A DNA stretch of 62,151 nucleotides, taken from a virus. The notes under the pieces were generated by a model. It did no database searches. It saw nothing but the letters and a program-made list of their open reading frames with translations, and was not told where the DNA came from. Each line of letters opens with the position of its first letter. The first letter of the stretch is position 1. The translations under genes were made by a program, and so were the position numbers. Below are positions 7,064 through 59,587 of the stretch, piece by piece. The stretch spans positions 1-62,151 of the IMG/VR virus record IMGVR_UViG_3300048831_000054; one strand, 5' to 3'.

Positions 7064-7933
7064 TTACTTCGCGGCCTGAGCAGCCTTCGCGCGGGCGCGC
7101 AGCTGCTCAAGGACGGACGACGTGCTCTTCGTTGGCTCAGCTGCTGCTACGGGAGCCGTGGCGGCAGGTGCCTCCTCGGTCTTGACCGCAGCGACGGCGG
7201 CCAGCACTTGGGCCGGCGCGGCCTCTTCCTCGTCCTCATCCTCGGCCTTGAAGGCCTTGCCCGTCTGGTCAGCGATGAGCATCGCCTCCAGTGTGGCGCG
7301 GTCGATCTGCTTGGTGCGGAACGTCTTGAGGTCGTACAGCTCGATGCGCTCGATGATGGAGTCATCGAGGTCCGTCTGCTTCGGCGCGAAGTTGGACGTC
7401 GTGTACGAGTTCTGGCCGGAGCCTGTCTTCGTCTTGCGGAAGCGGAAGTTGTAGCCGCCCTTCAGCTCGAAGGGAGCCTCTTCCAGGTCACCAGACTGGA
7501 ACGCCGCCTGGATCTGCTTGAAGACCTGCGGGCCGAACTCAACCAGCTTGACGAGCTGGGACTGGTCGTGCTCGATCGGCGACTCGATCACGATGACCTG
7601 GCCGATGTAGCCCTTCTTCTTGTAGTACTTCTTGCCCATCGCCTCGTTCTCTTCGTCGTAGTACTTGCGCGCGAGGTCGCACACTGGGCAGGACTCGCCG
7701 TACATCGAGAGGCAGGGGACCTTCTTCTTCTCACCGTTGACGATGAGCTCGTGATTGAGGTTCTCAACCAGGAAGCCGAGGGGGTTCTCCTCGTCCAGGT
7801 CAGGCAGGAAGCGCACGACTGCGGTCGCACCTTCTTCCATCTTCCAGAAGGGGTAGAAAAGTTTCCAGGAGGGGTCTCCACCGCCGGTCTTCTGGGTGAA
7901 GGAGGCTTTCAGGGCGTCGAGGGATCGTTTCAT
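7064..7933 (-). CDS. 32: gp32-type single-stranded DNA-binding protein
   Basis: Coats ssDNA in replication, recombination and repair. 289 aa, close to T4 gp32 (301). Zinc ligands fit the T4 pattern: H61, C74, C82 and C85 (T4: H64, C77, C87, C90). An acidic stretch (KAEDEDEEE) is followed by an Ala/Pro/Glu-rich linker and an Ala/Lys-rich C-terminus, unlike the strictly acidic T4 tail. The 5' region carries a late promoter, a leader stem and an upstream attenuator-like terminator, suggesting layered control. Confidence 0.93.
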   Translation of the reverse strand: MKRSLDALKASFTQKTGGGDPSWKLFYPFWKMEEGATAVVRFLPDLDEENPLGFLVENLNHELIVNGEKKKVPCLSMYGESCPVCDLARKYYDEENEAMGKKYYKKKGYIGQVIVIESPIEHDQSQLVKLVEFGPQVFKQIQAAFQSGDLEEAPFELKGGYNFRFRKTKTGSGQNSYTTSNFAPKQTDLDDSIIERIELYDLKTFRTKQIDRATLEAMLIADQTGKAFKAEDEDEEEAAPAQVLAAVAAVKTEEAPAATAPVAAAEPTKSTSSVLEQLRARAKAAQAAK

Positions 7934-7980
7934 GGTTCAAACTCCTTGTGCAAAGGTTCAAAATGCAAACAGTGAAAGTA

Positions 7981-7998
7981 CGTAAGCACTTGCTTACG
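7981..7998 (-). promoter_or_regulatory. Stem-loop in the gene 32 leader
   Basis: Minus-strand CGTAAGC-AAGT-GCTTACG is a perfect 7-bp stem with a 4-nt loop, 48 nt upstream of the gene 32 start and just after the late start site. T4 gp32 represses its own mRNA through a leader pseudoknot; by position this stem could serve a similar role. That is inference. Confidence 0.5.
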
Positions 7999-24041: not shown

Positions 24042-25352
24042 TTATGGGAACGTCCCCGTCGGCGAGCCGCCGGTGCTCGAGTCCTTGACAGGGGCCGGAG
24101 GCGCGGTGCCAAAGACGGCGCCAGTGCTGAAGATGCTCTTCGTGGCGCTGAACAGCGACTTCTGCGCCTGCGTTGCCAGGCCCTGCCCAACGCGCGAGAG
24201 CTCACCCGCGACGATCGTGCCGCCCGGCGTCTTGCCGAGCGTCTTGAGCAGGAAGTTTGAGACCGACTGGTTGGCGGCGCGGATGGCCTGGTTGCCGATC
24301 ATCTCCGTCGCCTTCTGTGCGAAGTTGCCGAACAGCGACTGGCCACCAGGGCTGGCCGTCTCATTGCGGTAGACGGACGAGTCGTAGTTGCCGGCCTCTG
24401 ACAGGATGTCTTTGCCCTCCATCACCGGCGCGGTGTTGGCGAGGGTCGCCTGCTGGGCGTACGACATGTGCAGCGCGTCAAAGTTGAATGACAGCGACAG
24501 GTTGCTTGGACCACCACCGCTCGAGTAGTCGAGGTCATCCATGTTGATGTTGGTGATGCGTGGGTTGATGAAGTCGAAGTGAACGACCTTCACCCAGCTC
24601 TTTGGGTCTGAGTACCACGAGCCGCGTTCCACGAAGATCTGGCTGATGCGGATGCGGGTGAGTGGCTGGTTAGCCACCCCGCTGGAACTTGCGGGAATTG
24701 CCTGCAGCCCGCCACCGTCCAGGCCACCAAACGGCGGCGTGAACTCCATGCCACGGCGGTCAAAGCTCTGCACCGCCGCGTCGGTCACCGGCCGAGAGAT
24801 CGGCTGGTAGATCATGCGGTAGATGTTGGCGAAGTCCAGCGCGCGGTTACCGACGTCGTCTGTCAGCGTCATGCTGAGCTCGCGGTGCTTGATGCGCGTG
24901 AGCACGTGCGTCCGGTAGTTGTACATGTTCACCTCCTCGTACTCAAAGTCGACCTGTGGGCGGTCGATCTGAGTCACCATGAAGGTGAGGTTCTCCTCAA
25001 AGTCACGCGTCGTGACGTTGGTCCCGAACTGCTGGATGTACTCGTTCAGCGCCGGGTGAAAGGTAAAGCTGACCTTGAACAGGAACTTGAGCTTCGGGTC
25101 GAAATCGACCTGAAAGGCCTCAGTCAGGGCGGCGGCATAGCGGGTGGAGTCGCTGATGCGCGTCTGCGGGTCCTGCTGCGCGATGACGGTCTGCGCGTCG
25201 GTAGGGCCCGCGCCTGGTGGGTTCGTCTGGCCAAAGATGCTGCCCAGGGCGCCAGAGGCGAGGCCGCCGATGGCCGCGCCGAATGCGGCAAAGGCCTGCT
25301 GCTCAAGGGCGACGCCTGTGCTCTTGACAATGCCTGAGATGTCTGGGCTCAC
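24042..25352 (-). CDS. Tail-tube-like baseplate/initiator protein (gp54-like)
   Basis: 436 aa. The middle (about 110-330) repeats the tube-protein pattern: TQIDRPQVDFEYEEVNMYNYR matches the gp19 segment MIDRPNVEFQEVEIHRYNS, and MDDLDYSS matches WGDLDYSS. Long Ala/Gly-rich ends flank it. T4 gp54 and gp48 are tube-fold initiators; a gp48-like gene is at 60449-61630, so this is probably gp54 or an equivalent tube adaptor. GTG start at 25352 with AGGATC upstream; late promoter 26 nt before. Confidence 0.6.
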   Translation of the reverse strand: MSPDISGIVKSTGVALEQQAFAAFGAAIGGLASGALGSIFGQTNPPGAGPTDAQTVIAQQDPQTRISDSTRYAAALTEAFQVDFDPKLKFLFKVSFTFHPALNEYIQQFGTNVTTRDFEENLTFMVTQIDRPQVDFEYEEVNMYNYRTHVLTRIKHRELSMTLTDDVGNRALDFANIYRMIYQPISRPVTDAAVQSFDRRGMEFTPPFGGLDGGGLQAIPASSSGVANQPLTRIRISQIFVERGSWYSDPKSWVKVVHFDFINPRITNINMDDLDYSSGGGPSNLSLSFNFDALHMSYAQQATLANTAPVMEGKDILSEAGNYDSSVYRNETASPGGQSLFGNFAQKATEMIGNQAIRAANQSVSNFLLKTLGKTPGGTIVAGELSRVGQGLATQAQKSLFSATKSIFSTGAVFGTAPPAPVKDSSTGGSPTGTFP

Positions 25353-26116: not shown

Positions 26117-26707
26117 TTAGAGGTTGCCGTTGAGGGCAGTGCCGTAGCCCGCACCCGTCAGCTCGTGGCGAGCGTGATCGAAGCGGATCGACAGTTGAAT
26201 GGTAACTGCGTCTGAGGAGCTGTAATCAAGGTCGCCCCAGTTCGCAGATGCGATGTAGCAGCCCTCAAGCTTCCATGTCTCGACGACGGCCTCGTTGCCG
26301 TCAAGCTGCTCGAGGATCGTGCCGAACTTGTAGTCACTGCCGGTCGCAGCGCTGTTCAGCCACTGGCCAGGAAGGTCAGCACCGATGAGGCGCTTCTGCG
26401 TCTCAAGCTGTCCCTGCACGGCGTACGATGCCAGGCCGGTAATGTCGTCCTCGATCGTGAGGTTGATCGGCTGGTACGTGTGCTTGCCGGCAACGTAGGC
26501 CACGCTGTTGTAGCGGTGAATCTCAACCTCTTGGAACTCGACGTTCGGGCGGTCAATCATTGTGGCTTGTCTTGTGATCTCACGCGAGCTCGCTCCTGGT
26601 ACCAGGCGGGCCAGACCAACGAAGGTCACCTGCCAGCGGTACTTCTGCTTTGGCATCAAGACACCGAAGCCGGCGCCCGGGATACCCATGTTTGAAAGTG
26701 TGGCCAT
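26117..26707 (-). CDS. 19: Tail tube protein (gp19-like)
   Basis: Polymerises into the inner tube through which DNA passes. 196 aa (T4 gp19 is 163). Tube-fold beta pattern: MIDRPNVEFQEVEIHRYNS, a WKLEGCYIASANWGDLDYSS strand pair and an LSIRFDHARH end. Directly downstream of a late promoter. Confidence 0.9.
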   Translation of the reverse strand: MATLSNMGIPGAGFGVLMPKQKYRWQVTFVGLARLVPGASSREITRQATMIDRPNVEFQEVEIHRYNSVAYVAGKHTYQPINLTIEDDITGLASYAVQGQLETQKRLIGADLPGQWLNSAATGSDYKFGTILEQLDGNEAVVETWKLEGCYIASANWGDLDYSSSDAVTIQLSIRFDHARHELTGAGYGTALNGNL

Positions 26708-51720: not shown

Positions 51721-52251
51721 TTATTCAAGTTCTAACAAGGAGCGTTCACCGGCCACATAACAGAGAAGTCGACCATGATTGATCCCTAAAGTTTCAGCGG
51801 TTCTGCGCCATGACCCAAGTGGGTTTGTATTTTTCTTCGGTTGTGGGTGCGCCATGGGACCCATTTCCAAAGCTTTCTTATACAGCGCTTTTTCCTGTTC
51901 AGATAGCTTAGTTCGTGGGAGGCGACACTGACGTTTTACGCTCTCTCGTGTTACTTGCTTATGTCGAGGGTGAATCATTTTCGATGGCGAAGCTTTATGA
52001 CTTTCTAGGAACTCAATTATGTTGTCGAAGAATGTTCTGGCTTCTATGTGCTGTAGTGACCATTCGATAAATCCTAAGGCACGATTACATCGGTCATGCA
52101 TCACCGATCGTATGAATCCATTTGAATGATCATGGTCTAGAACTAGATCATGCATTTCAATCTCAGTCTTACAGAGTGGACACTGTCGTTTTTGATTTTC
52201 CCACAACTGTAATTTTAGCGGGTGACATTCGCTGTGTTTCAGTCGGCGCAT
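51721..52251 (-). CDS. HNH/endonuclease VII-type homing endonuclease
   Basis: 176 aa. CPLC (24-27), LDHDH (38-42), then R..MHDRCN (H52, C55, N56) matches the endonuclease VII/HNH fold. The C-terminal part has a helix-turn-helix-like segment (RTAETLGINHGRLL). Clearly more AT-rich than its neighbours, and its start overlaps the polymerase-like gene by 83 nt. It has its own full-consensus late promoter, as T4 homing enzymes often do. Probably a mobile free-standing endonuclease. Confidence 0.8.
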   Translation of the reverse strand: MRRLKHSECHPLKLQLWENQKRQCPLCKTEIEMHDLVLDHDHSNGFIRSVMHDRCNRALGFIEWSLQHIEARTFFDNIIEFLESHKASPSKMIHPRHKQVTRESVKRQCRLPRTKLSEQEKALYKKALEMGPMAHPQPKKNTNPLGSWRRTAETLGINHGRLLCYVAGERSLLELE

Positions 52252-53512
52252 CTTCAGATTCCTTGACGGTAATTTTCAAGTTAAGCTCAGTCAATATTCT
52301 TGACATGAGCTTCTCAGTCGTTTCGTTATTTATAATGCCGTCAAGACCGTCATGCAATTGAATTCCTTGATTACCAAGGGCCTGCCAGAGGGCGTGGCGC
52401 GCCGACCGCTCCCACTGGAAGTAGAGGGTGAACACCTCCTTCTGGCCGGCGAGCGTCGGTTTCTTACCGAGAAACAGGCACACCTCGCGCTTCGCCTTCC
52501 TGTACTGCTTCGCCAGGTGTGACAGCCGGTCACCGCAGGTGATGAGCTGGGTGGTGGAGAGGTGCGGCGCGAACTGCCTCACTATACGGACCGCCTCTGA
52601 CCGGCCGCTGCCAGCGGCGAGCATCGTGCCTGAGATGTTTGACCCGTTGGCCAGCGACATGACCAGCCGCTTGACGACCGACAGGTTCTCCTCAGTCACG
52701 TCGAGGTGCAGGAGCTTCCCGCAGATCTCGGCCCTGAACTCCTTCTTCGTCTCGTCAAGCCTGAACAGGTCAGGGAACTTGAGGCGCAGCTGCTGCTCCC
52801 TGCCGGCGTGCTTGCGCTTGAGGTAGGAGAGCAGGAACTGCGTAAAGGCGTTCTCGATGTCGACGGACGTGCCGAACAGCTGGTGCCTAAGCCAGCTCGG
52901 CCAGGTCTCAATGGCGCGGATGGGCCAGACTGACGTGTCACGGGCCTTCAGCCTGCCTGACGGGCGAAAGTAGAAGTCGACGACCGGGCCCTGCCGCTGC
53001 AGCCACTCGACCTGCGCGATGAGGTCCAGCCGGCCATCGGCCCGCAGGCGCGTGAGCACCGCCTGGCTGACTGGCCGCACGCTGACGGCGCTCTTGAGAA
53101 AGACCGACGCGTTGGGTGGCCGGCCTGGGTCAAACGTGACGCGCTCAGCCAGCCGCTCGATCTCGGCCACCAGCCTAGGTGACAGCTTCTTGGCGCGGAC
53201 GAGGGTCGGCGCCGCGTTCCCGTTGATGTTGAAGCCGAGGCGGTCGATCGTGAAGAACTTCTCCAGGATCACCCGCGCGTCTGCTGACCCGCCTGGCACC
53301 CGCGACAGGTACAGCTCCTCAGTGAGGAAGCCAGGGGACGAGCGCTGGTGCCTGGTCAGGCGGTGCCAGGCGAGGGCCACCGAGATGATGAGGCCCTGCC
53401 GCTGGCGGCGCTTGCGCCACCAGGTGCCCTTGAGCTGAAAGAATTTCCCTACGTAGAGGGGGTGCTCGCGCGGCAGCTCGTCGCCAAGCTTGACCGCGTT
53501 AAAGAGGAGCAC
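52169..53512 (-). CDS. Putative single-subunit polymerase-like protein (T7 RNAP/Pol A palm)
   Basis: 447 aa. Ordered motifs: RPSGR (183-187); motif A-like SVDIENA with D218; motif B-like KRLVMSLANGS (281-291), very close to T7 RNA polymerase KRSVMTLAYGS; motif C-like LHDGLDG with H387-D388. The N-terminal 170 residues are basic and unrecognised. Function could be RNA polymerase, primase or DNA polymerase; unproven. GTG start at 53512. The last 75 codons, including motif C, lie in AT-rich DNA near the HNH gene. Confidence 0.5.
   Translation of the reverse strand: MLLFNAVKLGDELPREHPLYVGKFFQLKGTWWRKRRQRQGLIISVALAWHRLTRHQRSSPGFLTEELYLSRVPGGSADARVILEKFFTIDRLGFNINGNAAPTLVRAKKLSPRLVAEIERLAERVTFDPGRPPNASVFLKSAVSVRPVSQAVLTRLRADGRLDLIAQVEWLQRQGPVVDFYFRPSGRLKARDTSVWPIRAIETWPSWLRHQLFGTSVDIENAFTQFLLSYLKRKHAGREQQLRLKFPDLFRLDETKKEFRAEICGKLLHLDVTEENLSVVKRLVMSLANGSNISGTMLAAGSGRSEAVRIVRQFAPHLSTTQLITCGDRLSHLAKQYRKAKREVCLFLGKKPTLAGQKEVFTLYFQWERSARHALWQALGNQGIQLHDGLDGIINNETTEKLMSRILTELNLKITVKESEDAPTETQRMSPAKITVVGKSKTTVSTL
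52327..52334 (-). promoter_or_regulatory. Full-consensus late promoter for the HNH homing gene
   Basis: Minus-strand TATAAATA inside the polymerase-like gene; predicted start near 52321, 70 nt before the HNH ATG. Confidence 0.65.
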
Positions 53513-53801
53513 TGGTCACCACCTTCTCGGTGACCTCCTCCTGCGTGGCTGGTGTGACAGGGCCGTCCCACGGCATTGGGAGCTTGCGCCTGCCGTTCGC
53601 GCGGCGCTTCAGCTCACGGTAGACGCCCTTGGGGCACTTGGGGTCCAGCACGGTCGGTCCTTGAATTGGGCCAGCGGTTCCTGCGTTAACACCAGGAATC
53701 TGAAAGTGGCCGTAGCGTGCCCACTCTTTTCCATCAATGACACCTTTTTCAGCAAACTGCCGGGTCAAGAGGCGGAGCTTCTTTGCAAGTTTCTCGTTCA
53801 T
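53499..53801 (-). CDS. Small hypothetical protein
   Basis: 100 aa, basic (RELKRRANGRRKLP). Overlaps the polymerase-like gene by 14 nt and the upstream gene by 4 nt. No motif; may be a partner of the polymerase-like protein. Confidence 0.55.
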   Translation of the reverse strand: MNEKLAKKLRLLTRQFAEKGVIDGKEWARYGHFQIPGVNAGTAGPIQGPTVLDPKCPKGVYRELKRRANGRRKLPMPWDGPVTPATQEEVTEKVVTSAPL

Positions 53802-54445
53802 AGTTTTCCTGAGTAGCGAGGGTTGAGGTCAGAGTCCACGTGATCGACCAGGTAGCCGTGGGGCTGGCGGTAGAGGAGGACCTCCCACCTGTCAACGCTC
53901 GCGGTCCCTAGCTTTCCAAGCTTCGGTCTGACTATTATAAACTGCACGGCCTCAGTTGGTAACTTCAGGCCCTCGATGTAGACCGGGGCCTCACCGCCAA
54001 AGACCGTCAGGCTGTGCAGCTCTCCGAGCGCCGAGTGCCGGTGCAGCTGAACCTCTGACTTGTCCTGCACCTTCCTGAGGTCAAAGGTGCTGGCGGGGAA
54101 CTGCGCCGAGTGGTGCGTCGTTGGGTTGGGCGTGATCATGGTGCGCCGGCCCTTGGACCTGGCAAGGTGCGAGCAGATGGCCTCGAGGAAGGCCGAGTGG
54201 GCGCGGGCGCTCAGCTGTGGCCGCACCTTGCCGATGGCGGTGCGCAGCTCATCGCGCTCAGGTGGCATGAAGGGCAGGTTGGAGCTGGCCTGGCGGGAGA
54301 TGTACGGGGCGACGTACTCAGCGGCGCGGTAGTACAGCTCGTAGTACGCCGCGACGACCTTCAGCAGGTCGCCGAAGTCGGGGTGCTGCGCGGTGCGATA
54401 GAGGTCGTGCTTGGCGGCCCAGCGTGGTGTCAGGTGCTCAGTCAT
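53798..54445 (-). CDS. Hypothetical protein
   Basis: 215 aa, rich in His and Arg, with a helical N-terminus (LLKVVAAYYELYYRAAEYV) and a beta-rich C-terminus. ATGA overlaps on both sides tie it to the nuclease and polymerase-like genes. Not recognised. Confidence 0.55.
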   Translation of the reverse strand: MTEHLTPRWAAKHDLYRTAQHPDFGDLLKVVAAYYELYYRAAEYVAPYISRQASSNLPFMPPERDELRTAIGKVRPQLSARAHSAFLEAICSHLARSKGRRTMITPNPTTHHSAQFPASTFDLRKVQDKSEVQLHRHSALGELHSLTVFGGEAPVYIEGLKLPTEAVQFIIVRPKLGKLGTASVDRWEVLLYRQPHGYLVDHVDSDLNPRYSGKL

Positions 54446-55056
54446 TCTGGAACTTTGATGTCAAACGCTGGGACAGGCTCAAGCGGAGGGCCCGTGTACG
54501 CCTTGTCGTACCAGAAGTAGGGAAACTTCAGCAGCGTGTTGAGCTCAAACACGTCAACCATCAGGCGCTGGCCCTCGAAGGTGTAGGAGATGGAGATGTT
54601 CGGTGGTGTCGGCCTCAGGCCAACGGTGGTCAGGACCGCGGCGAAAGTGGGCGTGTGGTTCCACTTGAAGATCAGCATCGCCATCTTTCCAACCTTGGCG
54701 GCGTCAGTCTCCGCCTCGTTGAACCACTTGAAGAAGTTGGCCGAGCCGGTCACCAGCGACGTGAAGTTGTCGGGGGTCTTGTAGAACTTGGTCTCGATGG
54801 AGAAGTTGAACCTCAGGTTGGTGTCCTTCTCGTTCGTCGGCACGACATCCCCGACGAACAGCTTGAGGGCGTCAGCGCCGAACAGCTTGCCGATCGTGTC
54901 GAAGTTCTTACCGCCCACCCGCGCGCCTGAGCCCTGGGTGCGGATGAAGTTGAGCGGCTGTAGGTGCTGCGTCAGCAGTTTTGCCACCTGTGACTCAAAC
55001 CCGTTACCTTTAGATTTGGAGTTAGTTCGTTTCTTTTTGTCTTTGGGCACGTCCAT
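54442..55056 (-). CDS. PD-(D/E)xK nuclease (Holliday-junction-resolvase-like)
   Basis: 204 aa. Basic N-terminus, then GNGFESQVAKLL (E21), QGSGARVGG, VGDVV (D70) and SIETK (E88, K90): the conserved E-...-D-ExK catalytic set of Hjc-like resolvases and related nucleases. The C-terminal domain is beta-rich. Probably cuts branched DNA or processes ends together with the neighbouring genes. Confidence 0.75.
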   Translation of the reverse strand: MDVPKDKKKRTNSKSKGNGFESQVAKLLTQHLQPLNFIRTQGSGARVGGKNFDTIGKLFGADALKLFVGDVVPTNEKDTNLRFNFSIETKFYKTPDNFTSLVTGSANFFKWFNEAETDAAKVGKMAMLIFKWNHTPTFAAVLTTVGLRPTPPNISISYTFEGQRLMVDVFELNTLLKFPYFWYDKAYTGPPLEPVPAFDIKVPE

Positions 55057-55750
55057 CTTTTTCCATCCTTGCTAACTGGCGAGACGTGATACCCAGCTGA
55101 CGCTCAGCATCTTTTCCCGAGTTATACGTAACACCATCAATGACAAAACGAACAGCATTGCTTGGCGTCTTACCTAGGTTCTTTTTCCCGACACTTTTCA
55201 TGGCAATCGCAAGTTCAGGAGCTCGTTTCTTTTGGGCTAATGACATCTTTTGTCGAGTTTCAGCACTTTTGCATTTTCCTCTTAGACCTTCAGAAGTTCT
55301 TGCCTTGTGATATTCGGATAGCGGTTTACCGCGTCTAGCATTTCCCCAGAGAGCCTTTCGTTCTGCTTCGCTCAATGAAGCCGCAAAATTTTTCAATGAT
55401 GCACTTATTTTTGCAGCTATCTCATCTTTTCGCTCGAACGTTTGTGGACCCCATCCACCTGCTGCCCTTGCAATGTTGAATAGCTTCCGTCCTGATGAAG
55501 CCAATGCATCAATGTGAGCGTTTTCACGTTCAAAGAATTCTGTCTTGCTGTATGTCTCAATTGATTCGAGAATAACAAAGGAAAAACTTCCTGCCCCGTA
55601 TTTTTCCCACGCGCGCTGGAGATTGATGTTAAAATGCTTGCCGGCATTTAAGAGGTTCTGATGTTCCTTCCAGCGCCCTGAGAAATTTTTGGCGGAGCCA
55701 ACGTACACCTTACCGTTGGCTCGACAGCAAATTTTATAGATCCCTCCCAT
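55022..55750 (-). CDS. GIY-YIG homing endonuclease (Seg-like)
   Basis: 242 aa. GIY (3-5), VYVGS (15-19), NFSGRWKEH, catalytic Glu region FEREN; the C-terminal region has repeated modular DNA-binding (NUMOD-like) segments ending in a helix-turn-helix-like GITSRQLARM. AT-rich relative to neighbours; overlaps the nuclease gene by 35 nt. Late promoter core ends 4 nt before the ATG. Confidence 0.85.
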   Translation of the reverse strand: MGGIYKICCRANGKVYVGSAKNFSGRWKEHQNLLNAGKHFNINLQRAWEKYGAGSFSFVILESIETYSKTEFFERENAHIDALASSGRKLFNIARAAGGWGPQTFERKDEIAAKISASLKNFAASLSEAERKALWGNARRGKPLSEYHKARTSEGLRGKCKSAETRQKMSLAQKKRAPELAIAMKSVGKKNLGKTPSNAVRFVIDGVTYNSGKDAERQLGITSRQLARMEKDGRAQRQKETN

Positions 55751-55784: not shown

Positions 55785-57557
55785 TCAGGTCAAGGCCTCC
55801 TCTACCTCATCTATCTGCGCATCATGGTCAACGATGCTTGAGAAACCGTTCTGCTTGCGAACGATGATCTGCCTGTCAAACCGTCCAATGGCCTCAGGCC
55901 GGTGGGAGATGATCCACAGCCCCAGCCCGTCGTCACGTGTCTTCTGCTTCAGCAGCTTGAACACCGCCTCAACTCCAGCGCCGTCCAGCGACGCGTCAAT
56001 CTCGTCAATGAACAGGCAGTTCACCTTGCTGTGCAGGTGGTGCAACACGTCCCTGAAGGCCAGCGAGAGCGAGAGGTTGACGCGCTTCTTCTCACCGCTG
56101 GATAGGTTGCCGAAGTCCAGCTCACGCCCAAACTCAGACACTGTGCAGCTCATGTCGTCGTCAAACTTCACCACGTGCGGCAGGCCTAGCTGCTTGGTGT
56201 AGTGAATTAGTCGCGCGTTCAGGAACGGGATGGTGCGGTTGATGATGCGGCGGCGGATGAAGGAGTTCTTGTCGGTCAGCAGCTTCAGCAGGAACTGCTG
56301 GTGCTCCTGCTCCTTCTTCAGCTCGTCAAGCACGTCGTACGTCACCTTCTTTACCGCGTGCTGCTTGAGCGCCTCATACGCCTCAACGTGCGGGTTGGTA
56401 GCGTTCACCGTCTCGTCGATGCGCTGCTGCGCGGTGAGGGCGCTGGTCTCGGCGCGGACGGCGTCGGCCAGTGACTTGAACTTCATGAGCTCTCGCGCAC
56501 CTGCCAGCTGGCCCTCGACGTCCGCCAGTTCAGTCTCAAACTGATCAATGACCGTCTCAAGCTCCTTCAGCCGTGTCTTACGCTTATCTAGGAACGTCTG
56601 CTTCTCCACCAGCCTGTCAGCCGCGCCTTCATACTGCTGCAGGCAGTAGGGGCACTTGTCCTCTGTCAGGTGCTTCAGCTCCGTCTCGACCTTCTTGATG
56701 TCGGCGGTAACGCTCGAGCGGTCCTTCCTGGCGATGCTGAGGTGCGAGGTGACGCTGACCTGCCTGGTAGACAGCTGCTCCACTAGCGCGTGTAGCTCCC
56801 TCTCGGTGGCCATGTCGCAGTCGCTCAGCAGCTCAAGCTCCCCCTCAAGATTCTTGAGGTAGCTCACGCGGTCATCTTCCCAGCGCTTGACCCTCGCCTC
56901 AGCGTCGGTCAGCTGCTTGTTGTAGAGCGCGACAGCGGCCTCCTGCTCCTTGATGATTGCCTCTTGCACGCTGATGGAACCTTCCGTCCCCTTGATGATC
57001 TCCTTCAGCTTGACGGCCTTCTCTGTCAGCAGCGTGATGTTAAACAGCTCCTCAATGAGCTGGCGCTGCGGGTGAACCGGCAGCAGCAGGAACGGGGTGG
57101 AGTTGCCCGAGAAGATGATGATCTTGGTGAAGAGGTCGTACGACAGGCCGATGATCTCCTCAACGAACCGGTCATTCTCACTGACGCTGTCGAGCGTCAC
57201 GTCCTGGTTGTTGCAGAAGATCTGGATGTTGGTCTGCTCACCGCGGCAGCGGTAGATCTCGTACTCGTCCTCACCCTTGGTAAAGGTGAGTCGCACCTCC
57301 ATCAGCGTGCTGCGCGCCCCGTTCGTGGAGTTGATGAGGCGCTGCAGACCGATGTTGTCAAACGGCTTGTTGTAGATGGCGTAGCAGATGGCGTTGATGA
57401 TGGTGGTCTTCCCAGCCCCGTTGTTGCTGCTGGCGTCAACGTTCTCACCCTGGATGAGGGTGCTGCCGTAGTTGCCTAGGTCAACCTCAGTCAGCTGGTT
57501 GCCGAAGCTGAGAAAGTTGCGCAGCTGCAGCGCCTTGAAGGTGATGGGAATGCTCAT
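55785..57557 (-). CDS. 46: gp46-like SMC-type recombination endonuclease subunit
   Basis: Rad50-like ATPase that with gp47 resects DNA ends. 590 aa (T4 560). Walker A NNGAGKTT near residue 47, long coiled coil, zinc hook CPYC at the middle, C-terminal signature NLSSGEKKR, and Walker B CLFIDEID. ATG at 57557 with AAGG upstream. Paired with gene 47 nearby. Confidence 0.95.
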   Translation of the reverse strand: MSIPITFKALQLRNFLSFGNQLTEVDLGNYGSTLIQGENVDASSNNGAGKTTIINAICYAIYNKPFDNIGLQRLINSTNGARSTLMEVRLTFTKGEDEYEIYRCRGEQTNIQIFCNNQDVTLDSVSENDRFVEEIIGLSYDLFTKIIIFSGNSTPFLLLPVHPQRQLIEELFNITLLTEKAVKLKEIIKGTEGSISVQEAIIKEQEAAVALYNKQLTDAEARVKRWEDDRVSYLKNLEGELELLSDCDMATERELHALVEQLSTRQVSVTSHLSIARKDRSSVTADIKKVETELKHLTEDKCPYCLQQYEGAADRLVEKQTFLDKRKTRLKELETVIDQFETELADVEGQLAGARELMKFKSLADAVRAETSALTAQQRIDETVNATNPHVEAYEALKQHAVKKVTYDVLDELKKEQEHQQFLLKLLTDKNSFIRRRIINRTIPFLNARLIHYTKQLGLPHVVKFDDDMSCTVSEFGRELDFGNLSSGEKKRVNLSLSLAFRDVLHHLHSKVNCLFIDEIDASLDGAGVEAVFKLLKQKTRDDGLGLWIISHRPEAIGRFDRQIIVRKQNGFSSIVDHDAQIDEVEEALT

Positions 57558-57564
57558 CTTGGCC

Positions 57565-57795
57565 TTATTCCGTGACGGCGAACGTCCTGACGAAGGCCTC
57601 TTCCTCGGCAGACAGCGGGCCAAAGCTGCCGCCGACCACCTTCAGCAGCCAGCCCTCGGTCTCCTCCCTGCTGATCTTGCCAAGGAAGTCGTTGATGCGC
57701 TCCTGCGTGATGATGCACTCGCTGCCATTGGCAGCGAACACCAGCTCCTGCTTGCCGGTCTCTGGTCCTACTCGCTTCTGACATGTCAGTCTCAT
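57565..57795 (-). CDS. Small hypothetical protein between genes 46 and 47
   Basis: 76 aa, beginning MRLTCQKRVGPETG; T4 also has small open frames between 46 and 47. ATG with AAGGAG upstream. Helical C-terminus. Unknown function. Confidence 0.6.
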   Translation of the reverse strand: MRLTCQKRVGPETGKQELVFAANGSECIITQERINDFLGKISREETEGWLLKVVGGSFGPLSAEEEAFVRTFAVTE

Positions 57796-57805
57796 TTGCT
57801 TCTCC

Positions 57806-58852
57806 TTACAGGCGGTGGTAGATGTTGATGAGGCGCTCAGGGTCTATCGTGCTGGTGCCGGTAACGCCGGTCTGCAGCAGCTTCACGACGGCGTCATTGA
57901 GAGAGCTGAGCTCGAAGCTCTCAATGCTGTCATCGCCGGCGATGGCCTCCTGCCGTTCGAACAGGTTCTCCTCAAGGGCGAACTCACGCAGTCCAAGGCT
58001 GGTCACCATCTCCTCTCGCAGGGCCTGCGCCTCCGAGTAGAGGATCTCGGTGTCGATCGTGCACCGCACCCGGCACTTCGGTGGAAAATCGGTGTGGCCC
58101 TCAAGGACCTTTGACAGCCGGATCTTTCTGAAGGACGGTGCCTGGTCCCAGTTCAGGAACCAGACGGACTCATCGGCGGTGTTCAAGAAGCAGCACCCCC
58201 GCTCATCATCGCCCGCATCACCGTAGTCCATCGGAAACGTGTTACCTATGTAGATGACGTTGTCACGCACCTGTCGCTTGTGAAAGTGCCCTGAGAAGAT
58301 GTACTTTGGGTCCTTGAAGAGCGTGTGCTCGGGACCATGCTCCATGACCCGGTCTGACCCGGTCACCAGAAAGTTCCTGAACTCAAAGTGGCCCAGCCAG
58401 TATTTAACCTTTCCGAACTTGACCAGCTCTGGGTACTCACCCTTGAACATGAATGGGCAGAGCAGCAGGTCCTCGAAGACCTCAGGTTCATTGATGAGCC
58501 GGACGTTCGGCAGGTCCTCAAAGACGCGCGTGGAGAAGATCTTGCGGTTCTCACGGTGGTAGAGGTCGTGGTTGCCAATCACGATGAAGATCGGCAGCCC
58601 AAGTGAGTTCAGCTCCTTCAGTGCCTCGTGCGCGTACGTGAGCGTCAGCACGTTGACGGCGTTGCGGTTCTCGAACCAGTCACCCAGGAAGGCAACGTGC
58701 GTCACGCCACCCTCCCTCTTCACCTGCTGGCAGAACCACTTGACGAAGTCGAGGCAGTCCTGGTTGTGCTGGATGGAGTTGCTGCGCTTGCCAAAGTGGA
58801 TGTCAGTGAACATCGCCACTTTCTTGGCGGCGAACTTCTTCGGTGCCGCCAT
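57806..58852 (-). CDS. 47: gp47-like Mre11-type nuclease subunit
   Basis: 348 aa metallophosphoesterase: MFTDIHFG (Asp, His), VAFLGDWFENR, VIGNHDLY and a later FSGHFHKRQ supply the Mre11 metal ligands. T4 gp47 is 339 aa. Partner of gp46. Starts directly after the gp55 stop. Confidence 0.95.
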   Translation of the reverse strand: MAAPKKFAAKKVAMFTDIHFGKRSNSIQHNQDCLDFVKWFCQQVKREGGVTHVAFLGDWFENRNAVNVLTLTYAHEALKELNSLGLPIFIVIGNHDLYHRENRKIFSTRVFEDLPNVRLINEPEVFEDLLLCPFMFKGEYPELVKFGKVKYWLGHFEFRNFLVTGSDRVMEHGPEHTLFKDPKYIFSGHFHKRQVRDNVIYIGNTFPMDYGDAGDDERGCCFLNTADESVWFLNWDQAPSFRKIRLSKVLEGHTDFPPKCRVRCTIDTEILYSEAQALREEMVTSLGLREFALEENLFERQEAIAGDDSIESFELSSLNDAVVKLLQTGVTGTSTIDPERLINIYHRL

Positions 58853-59587
58853 TTACTTCTTGGCCTTCTTCGTCTTCAGCAGCTTCTTCGTCTTCTTGAC
58901 GGCCGTCTTTGCCTTCTTTGCCACCTCCTTCGGAACTCTCGGCTTCTTCTCCTTGACGACGACCTGGCCGTCAACGATCTCCACCTGCGACTTCTTGTAG
59001 ATGGTCACCTTTCCTGGCAGCATGGACGCCGGCACCCGCCGCTTGGCGACGACCTTTGGCACGTAGGCGGCGGGGCTGATGTTCTCTGGTAGGATCTGCT
59101 CCTCATCCTCAGGCTCTGCGTGCTCCTTCTCCAGGTTCTCAGGAAGTGGCAGGTCATCAGACTCGATCGCCTCAAGCAGCCGCTCCTCCTTCTCCTTCTC
59201 AAGGAAGTTGAACGAGGGGTTCGCGCCGGCGTCGACCAGCAGCGAGTCACGGATGTTGCGGTGCTTCCGCTCGTCGTGCTTGTACTGCTGGAAGCAGTTG
59301 TGGATCGCGGTGGTGTAGTAGGCGAAAGGGTTGCTTGACTTGGCAGGGTCGAACTTCAAGGCGTTCTGGCACAGGTTGGCCATGGCGAGCGCCACCATGT
59401 CCTCCCGGTACGAGTAGCCGGAGAACCAGGACTTACGGGAGTACCGCTCGGCGATCAGCAGGAGCATCCTGGCGAGCCGGTCTGTCACTCGCCCGAGCTG
59501 CTTTGCCTCGAGAACTGCGGGAAGGAGCTGCGCGTTTGTTACGTAGTGGCCCTTCGTGCTGGTGGCCTTCTCTCTCTTTACCTTCAA
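58853..59587 (-). CDS. 55: Late-transcription sigma factor (gp55-like)
   Basis: Directs host RNA polymerase to TATAAATA late promoters. 244 aa (T4 185). The sigma-like core YREDMVALAMANLCQNALKF and NPFAYYTTAIHNCFQQYKHDERKHR is well kept. The C-terminal about 60 residues are Lys-rich and longer than in T4, where the end contacts the sliding clamp. Start TTG at 59587 with AGGAGA upstream. Expressed from an extended -10 promoter; target promoters abound in this window. Confidence 0.93.
   Translation of the reverse strand: MKVKREKATSTKGHYVTNAQLLPAVLEAKQLGRVTDRLARMLLLIAERYSRKSWFSGYSYREDMVALAMANLCQNALKFDPAKSSNPFAYYTTAIHNCFQQYKHDERKHRNIRDSLLVDAGANPSFNFLEKEKEERLLEAIESDDLPLPENLEKEHAEPEDEEQILPENISPAAYVPKVVAKRRVPASMLPGKVTIYKKSQVEIVDGQVVVKEKKPRVPKEVAKKAKTAVKKTKKLLKTKKAKK

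Follow-up and report, generated by a model that had tools for sequence, protein, structure and literature searches.

A candidate accessory A-superfamily polymerase encoded in a recombination gene cluster of jumbo phages

The polymerase gene and its neighbours

The window analysed here, a stretch of 62,151 nucleotides of viral DNA (IMG/VR record IMGVR_UViG_3300048831_000054), contains on its minus strand a reading frame of 447 amino acids with a GTG start (positions 52169–53512), annotated as an A-family/TV-Pol-like polymerase and here called POL. A sequence-only reading had singled out this reading frame as a divergent single-subunit polymerase; its coordinates and the motifs it quoted, namely SVDIENA with D218, KRLVMSLANGS with K281, and LHDGLDG with H387-D388, are accurate, and the strand, which it left unstated, is the minus strand. 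The conserved elements of POL comprise a beta-hairpin segment (RPSGRLKARDTSVWPI, residues 183–198; 52919–52966) with invariant G186, L188, R191, and W196-P197, motif A (GTSVDIENAFTQFLLS; 52826–52873) with invariant D218 and an aromatic residue (F/Y223) at D+5 in all 22 sequences, motif B on the O-helix (NLSVVKRLVMSLANGSN; 52637–52687) with invariant K281, M285, A288, N289, and G290, and motif C (GIQLHDGLDGII; 52331–52366) with invariant H387-D388-G389 and D391-G392, which lies in a predicted beta-hairpin turn. The N-terminal domain, delimited by predicted secondary structure (residues 1–145; 53078–53512), is not assigned to any family. The order of its helices and strands in the AlphaFold model resembles that of a winged helix, and several winged-helix proteins occur among the non-significant Foldseek matches of POL, which gives at most a weak hint of a possible winged helix. 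The C-terminal tail (about residues 420–447) is of low confidence in the model and is not kept in relatives.

The neighbouring genes on the minus strand agree with the replication or repair module proposed in the sequence-only reading: POL sits within a cluster of recombination and repair genes that includes gp46, gp47, and a resolvase. The two unknown genes with overlapping ends that it had listed are present, as is the linked PD-(D/E)xK nuclease. The first of the unknowns, u100 (53499–53801), encodes a small protein of 60–100 amino acids across relatives, of which the N-terminal 70 or so residues are conserved; nearly all relatives have it upstream of POL, although the two are not always directly adjacent. 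The second, u215 (53798–54445), is conserved in most relatives but has no match among cultured phages, and the ends in this part of the cluster overlap by 4–14 bp. The motifs THHSAQF and RPKLGKLG of u215 recur in most of the loci that carry POL. The PD-(D/E)xK endonuclease, a RusA-like Holliday junction resolvase (54442–55056), matches PF24608 (E 2.6e-20) and phrog_244. On the other side of POL, the start of a recombination endonuclease VII resembling T4 gp49 (51721–52251) overlaps the end of POL by 83 bp; this gene adjoins POL in some relatives only.

Beyond the resolvase, also on the minus strand, are a gp46/SbcC-like recombination nuclease subunit (55785–57623), a gp47/SbcD-like subunit (57806–58852), and a gp55-like late sigma factor (58853–59587), which yields the order gp55, gp47, gp46, (GIY-YIG), PD-(D/E)xK resolvase, u215, u100, POL, (endonuclease VII), u74, and a gp26-like baseplate gene. 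UvsX, gp32, and a helicase are also encoded in the window. The GIY-YIG homing endonuclease, which has an I-TevI-type DNA-binding domain, lies between gp46 and the resolvase (55022–55750) and is found in only a few relatives (loci L004, L005, L006, and L011). In two loci (L017/L018, 4203–4717), gp46 is interrupted at residue 72/73 by about 510 bp, possibly an intron or insertion, and in locus L012 a second, weaker match to a late sigma factor (32% identical; 7712–7996) lies directly upstream of POL. Elsewhere in the window, two tail-tube-family proteins of unequal size are encoded close together (24042–25352 and 26117–26707).

Distribution, conservation, and predicted fold

Single-sequence searches with POL gave no match in Pfam, NCBIfam, or PDB sequences and no meaningful PHROG match, and yielded no relative from 50,697 phage records or from 72,556 plasmids; a single-sequence pattern search of IMG/VR and about 85,000 genomes was likewise negative. 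Relatives were reached stepwise, using the adjacent gp46 as bait, then tblastn inside the loci so obtained, and finally an alignment search. This yielded 22 distinct sequences including that of the window, with one more found later in a 368-kb contig, so that the family comprises at least 23 distinct sequences from jumbo-phage contigs in IMG/VR, 43–48% identical to the POL of the window. All homologues share one conserved locus (gp55, gp47, gp46, resolvase, u215, u100, POL, baseplate genes), with u215 present in most and u100 in nearly all, and POL is present in all eight gp46-bait relatives whose locus extends to this region. Several POL-bearing contigs measure 140–368 kb, and the window is therefore considered part of a larger jumbo-phage genome. 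The terminases closest to the one it encodes are those of Xanthomonas phage XacN1, the PA5oct group, Sinorhizobium phage Phosso, and Stenotrophomonas phage RAS14; POL is missing from the corresponding locus of PA5oct and Phosso. A consensus POL query gave no credible match in cultured phages, nor did genome contigs searched by motif yield POL.

Fifteen residues (G186, L188, R191, D218, R260, K281, M285, A288, N289, G290, H387, D388, G389, D391, and G392) are invariant in all 22 sequences. The dN/dS ratios of six close-to-moderate homologue pairs (0.05–0.13) indicate that POL is a real gene under purifying selection.

Single-sequence AlphaFold modelling of POL was of no use (pLDDT 36); the 22-sequence alignment gave a model with a pLDDT of 83.6 and a pTM of 0.74. 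The model has two short helices (150–158 and 162–174; the TV-Pol feature compared is a two-helix coiled-coil thumb) followed by a hairpin (177–185/191–196), a strand (216–219) bearing D218 and then a helix, the O-helix (274–288) with motif B at its end, a long helix (354–378), and a second hairpin (384–386/389–391) with H387-D388 in its turn, before another helix and the last strand. In this prediction, the order of elements is that of the palm and fingers of A-family polymerases. The first four Foldseek matches in the PDB, Mycobacterium smegmatis Pol I (probability 0.99), human Pol nu (0.98), T7 DNA polymerase, and Pol theta, are all A-family DNA polymerases; the matches are modest (E 0.014–0.45, TM-scores about 0.3) and thus supportive of an A-family fold rather than decisive. 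Among viral models, ten matches had E ≤ 0.001, and the next was a virophage helicase/primase/polymerase (E 1.3e-3). Two putative metal-binding aspartates, D218 and D388, and the order of motifs A, B, and C are present in all 22 sequences. The proposal of a single-subunit palm polymerase of the A-superfamily type in a T4-like phage, for which the sequence-only reading had suggested a structure prediction and search, thus agrees with both AlphaFold and Foldseek. POL represents a genuine, previously unclassified family in the known A-superfamily, adding an undescribed and strongly conserved member to the group that joins DNA polymerase I, TV-Pols, and T7 RNA polymerase.

Motif affinities and choice of substrate

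The likeness of motif B to that of T7 RNA polymerase, on which the sequence-only reading was built, withstands comparison: NLSVVKRLVMSLANGS is in exact register with K631, M635, G640, and S641 of the T7 enzyme (TRSVTKRSVMTLAYGS, residues 626–641). As a lone 16-mer it is only weakly above chance (3/300 shuffles), whereas, with a family profile of motif B followed by motif C, none of 1000 shuffles of T7 RNA polymerase reached the score of the real sequence. Profile–profile comparisons of POL with T7 RNA polymerase, T7 DNA polymerase, and divPolA2 gave nothing significant, those with the two T7 enzymes being based on shallow alignments.

When 284 ORFs of at least 300 amino acids from the loci examined were ranked by a position-specific score for the hairpin and motifs A, B, and C in order, Ma-LMM01 gp030 came first and a protein of Polaromonas plasmid pH8NP1 second, besides one further POL homologue. 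Of three TV-Pol-type proteins, two had a significant score (gp030, 0/1000 shuffles; the pH8NP1 protein, 1/1000; a second Polaromonas protein, 58/1000); T7 RNA polymerase reached 8/1000 overall, and PolA (55/1000), T7 gp5 (425/1000), and divPolA2 (802/1000) had no support. Ma-LMM01 gp030 and the plasmid proteins are taken to be TV-Pols, because a TV-Pol element was reported in Ma-LMM01 by Iyer et al. (PMC2579912) and because gp030 adjoins transposase genes and a recombinase gene is found close to the pH8NP1 relative. Annotated as a hypothetical protein, Ma-LMM01 gp030 (locus L272, 3453–4973) is apparently the TV-Pol that this cyanophage carries; with IHNS at motif C, it may no longer have the catalytic aspartate. 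A pairwise BLAST of POL with the TV-Pol-type protein P0003 was not significant, and scans of viral contigs for relatives of divPolA2 and TV-Pols found none.

The resemblance to TV-Pols can be read in the pH8NP1 protein, where SGRLYA...YDIENCH...VKQALLALIYGAS...LQHDGF corresponds to SGRLKA...VDIENAF...VKRLVMSLANGSN...LHDGLDG of POL. Shared features are a hairpin with a conserved arginine (R191 in POL, 22/22, in hairpin 177–185/191–196), which reads SGRL in pH8NP1, the DIEN motif A, again in pH8NP1, the HDG motif C in Polaromonas, the motif B pattern VK....L..[YN]G, with Asn in Ma-LMM01, an Arg conserved within the helix that precedes the O-helix (R260 in POL, R303 in both Polaromonas proteins), and a stand-alone protein of about 420–540 amino acids. 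In the RxxxK register, K281 is invariant but position K-4 is L, I, M, or T; the three TV-Pol-type proteins likewise have no Arg there, and the published RxxxK may therefore be placed elsewhere. By contrast, the D+5 residue is His in the TV-Pols compared but F/Y in POL, and similarity outside the motifs is not detectable. TV-Pols occur in resolvase/transposase or D5-helicase elements, whereas the neighbours of POL are those of a jumbo-phage recombination operon (gp46/47, the Holliday junction resolvase, and baseplate genes). Judged by motifs, POL appears closest to the TV-Pol group; since the element or helicase context is absent, formal membership is not claimed.

DNA polymerases I (E. coli PolA, M. 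smegmatis Pol I, and Pol nu) are the best matches among solved structures and share the hairpin Arg, the two metal-binding Asp, and the O-helix Lys, and the D-K-D spacing of POL (63/107) is near that of PolA (53/124), as opposed to that of T7 RNA polymerase (94/181); but POL lacks both exonucleases and equivalents of E710, R754, Y766, and E883. The divPolA1 and divPolA2 enzymes of tailed phages resemble POL in being an extra divergent PolA beside the main replicative polymerase, with no active exonuclease and a novel N-terminal domain; divPolA2 has about 430 amino acids (PMC11348598). However, divPolA2 keeps a PolA-like Glu at D+5, the motif B Tyr, and a DE motif C, and membership of POL in this group was rejected (hhalign probability <2%, motif score at shuffle level). 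Like divPolA1 and divPolA2, POL is thus a supplementary enzyme, but it represents another lineage.

The residues of POL are altered exactly at the sites where enzymes of this superfamily choose between DNA and RNA building blocks. The fetched reference sequences have E710, R754, K758, Y766, and E883 in E. coli PolA and G542, R627, K631, Y639, and S813 in T7 RNA polymerase; the matching sites of POL are F/Y223 (22/22), position 277 without Arg (L/I/M/T), K281, N289, and G389. T7 RNA polymerase handles ribonucleotides via G542 and Y639, and in family B polymerases and reverse transcriptases ribonucleotides are kept out by a steric gate, an aromatic residue at Asp+5 of motif A. By analogy with the latter enzymes, F/Y223 probably excludes ribonucleotides, so that dNTP use would be favoured, and POL most likely makes DNA. 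The superfamily part of the sequence-only proposal is supported by motifs, AlphaFold, and Foldseek, whereas the nearness to T7 RNA polymerase is not supported as a functional label, given F/Y223 in place of G542, N289 in place of Y639, the lack of an O-helix counterpart of R627, the compact motif spacing, the absence of a PF00940 match, and an ordered-motif agreement with TV-Pol-type proteins that is no poorer than with the T7 enzyme.

Proposed role of the polymerase

Among the relatives, PolB is encoded in five of six larger ones, a DnaB-type helicase in all six, and a gp61-type primase in all seven large contigs tested, so that POL is an extra enzyme. With the gp55 gene, the host-RNA-polymerase/late-sigma route is also intact (58853–59587), and because this factor is present and the relatives keep PolB, POL replaces neither that route nor PolB. 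Replacement of the primase was rejected as the main reading on account of gp61. Replacement of the gp59 loader was also considered; gp59 was detected neither in phages with POL nor in those without.

It is fairly probable that POL is an accessory, exonuclease-free A-superfamily polymerase with TV-Pol-like motifs, which would synthesise DNA in recombination or repair beside a T4-type replisome. The recombination or repair role is the most likely one given the gene neighbourhood, because POL is encoded with gp46/gp47, the RusA-like resolvase, and sometimes endonuclease VII. In such a scheme, R191 of the hairpin, together with the N-terminal domain, would hold the template, K281 of the O-helix would bind the incoming nucleotide, F/Y223 would block ribonucleotides, and two-metal catalysis on D218 and D388 would drive polymerisation. 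POL would act on intermediates of recombination or repair, making DNA for gap filling, D-loop extension, or restart alongside the PolB, primase, and helicase of the phage, and might also prime de novo, as do CcPol-type enzymes. This suggests that, in some jumbo phages, recombination may have a DNA-synthesis enzyme of its own, in addition to the main one; because POL is short and stands alone, it is directly testable. A more specific and tentative version would see in POL a separate lineage of phage-borne extra A-family polymerases whose sugar-selection site has been remodelled (aromatic D+5, Asn for Tyr, and HDG) and which would serve, in jumbo phages with a full T4 replisome, as DNA prim-pols coupled to recombination.

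Somewhat less likely still, POL might be a dedicated prim-pol that makes DNA primers de novo like CcPol-MP of SCCmec and, alongside gp61 or instead of it, serves recombination-dependent restart, with u100 perhaps as a DNA-binding partner. The motif kinship with TV-Pol-type proteins, for which a prim-pol function was proposed (PMC2579912), is consistent with this, as is the small gene conserved near POL. PolA-SSB primases are counted in the TV-Pol group, and for CcPol-MP the prim-pol function was shown with dNTPs; they share with POL an A-family palm, the lack of an intact exonuclease, and a small neighbouring gene (PMC7581432, PMC10061031). However, POL has neither a demonstrated SSB/OB partner nor a helicase gene associated with it, a primase is already encoded by the phage itself (gp61-type in all seven large relatives tested), u100 has only 60–100 amino acids and a variable adjacency, and no D5 helicase neighbours POL among the annotated genes of the window.

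That POL is a compact T7-like RNA polymerase, the direction in which the sequence-only reading pointed, and transcribes a subset of phage genes or makes RNA primers, is improbable and disfavoured. The register of motif B (K631-M635-A638-G640-S641) and the IHD motif C of the T7 enzyme, the match of motifs B and C beyond all 1000 shuffles, a motif C with HD followed by a small residue instead of HDE, and the possible winged-helix N-terminus point in this direction. Against it, the sites of G542, Y639, and R627 are replaced (by F/Y, by N, and with no counterpart, respectively), POL and its homologues have 418–447 amino acids, about half the 883 of the T7 enzyme, and a late sigma factor is present. 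POL has no match to PF00940, its 21 homologues match no RNA_pol family in Pfam, the window has no PF00940 match, and no relative exceeds the cut-off.

Least probable of all is a catalytically dead or structural palm protein that binds DNA or has a regulatory function within the recombination cluster. This reading would accord with the unusual active-site surroundings (N289 and HDG) and with the precedent of PolA-SSB-type relatives, some of which lack their aspartates (PMC10061031), but runs counter to the invariance of both metal-binding aspartates, the O-helix lysine, and the hairpin arginine (22/22) and to strong purifying selection (dN/dS about 0.1).
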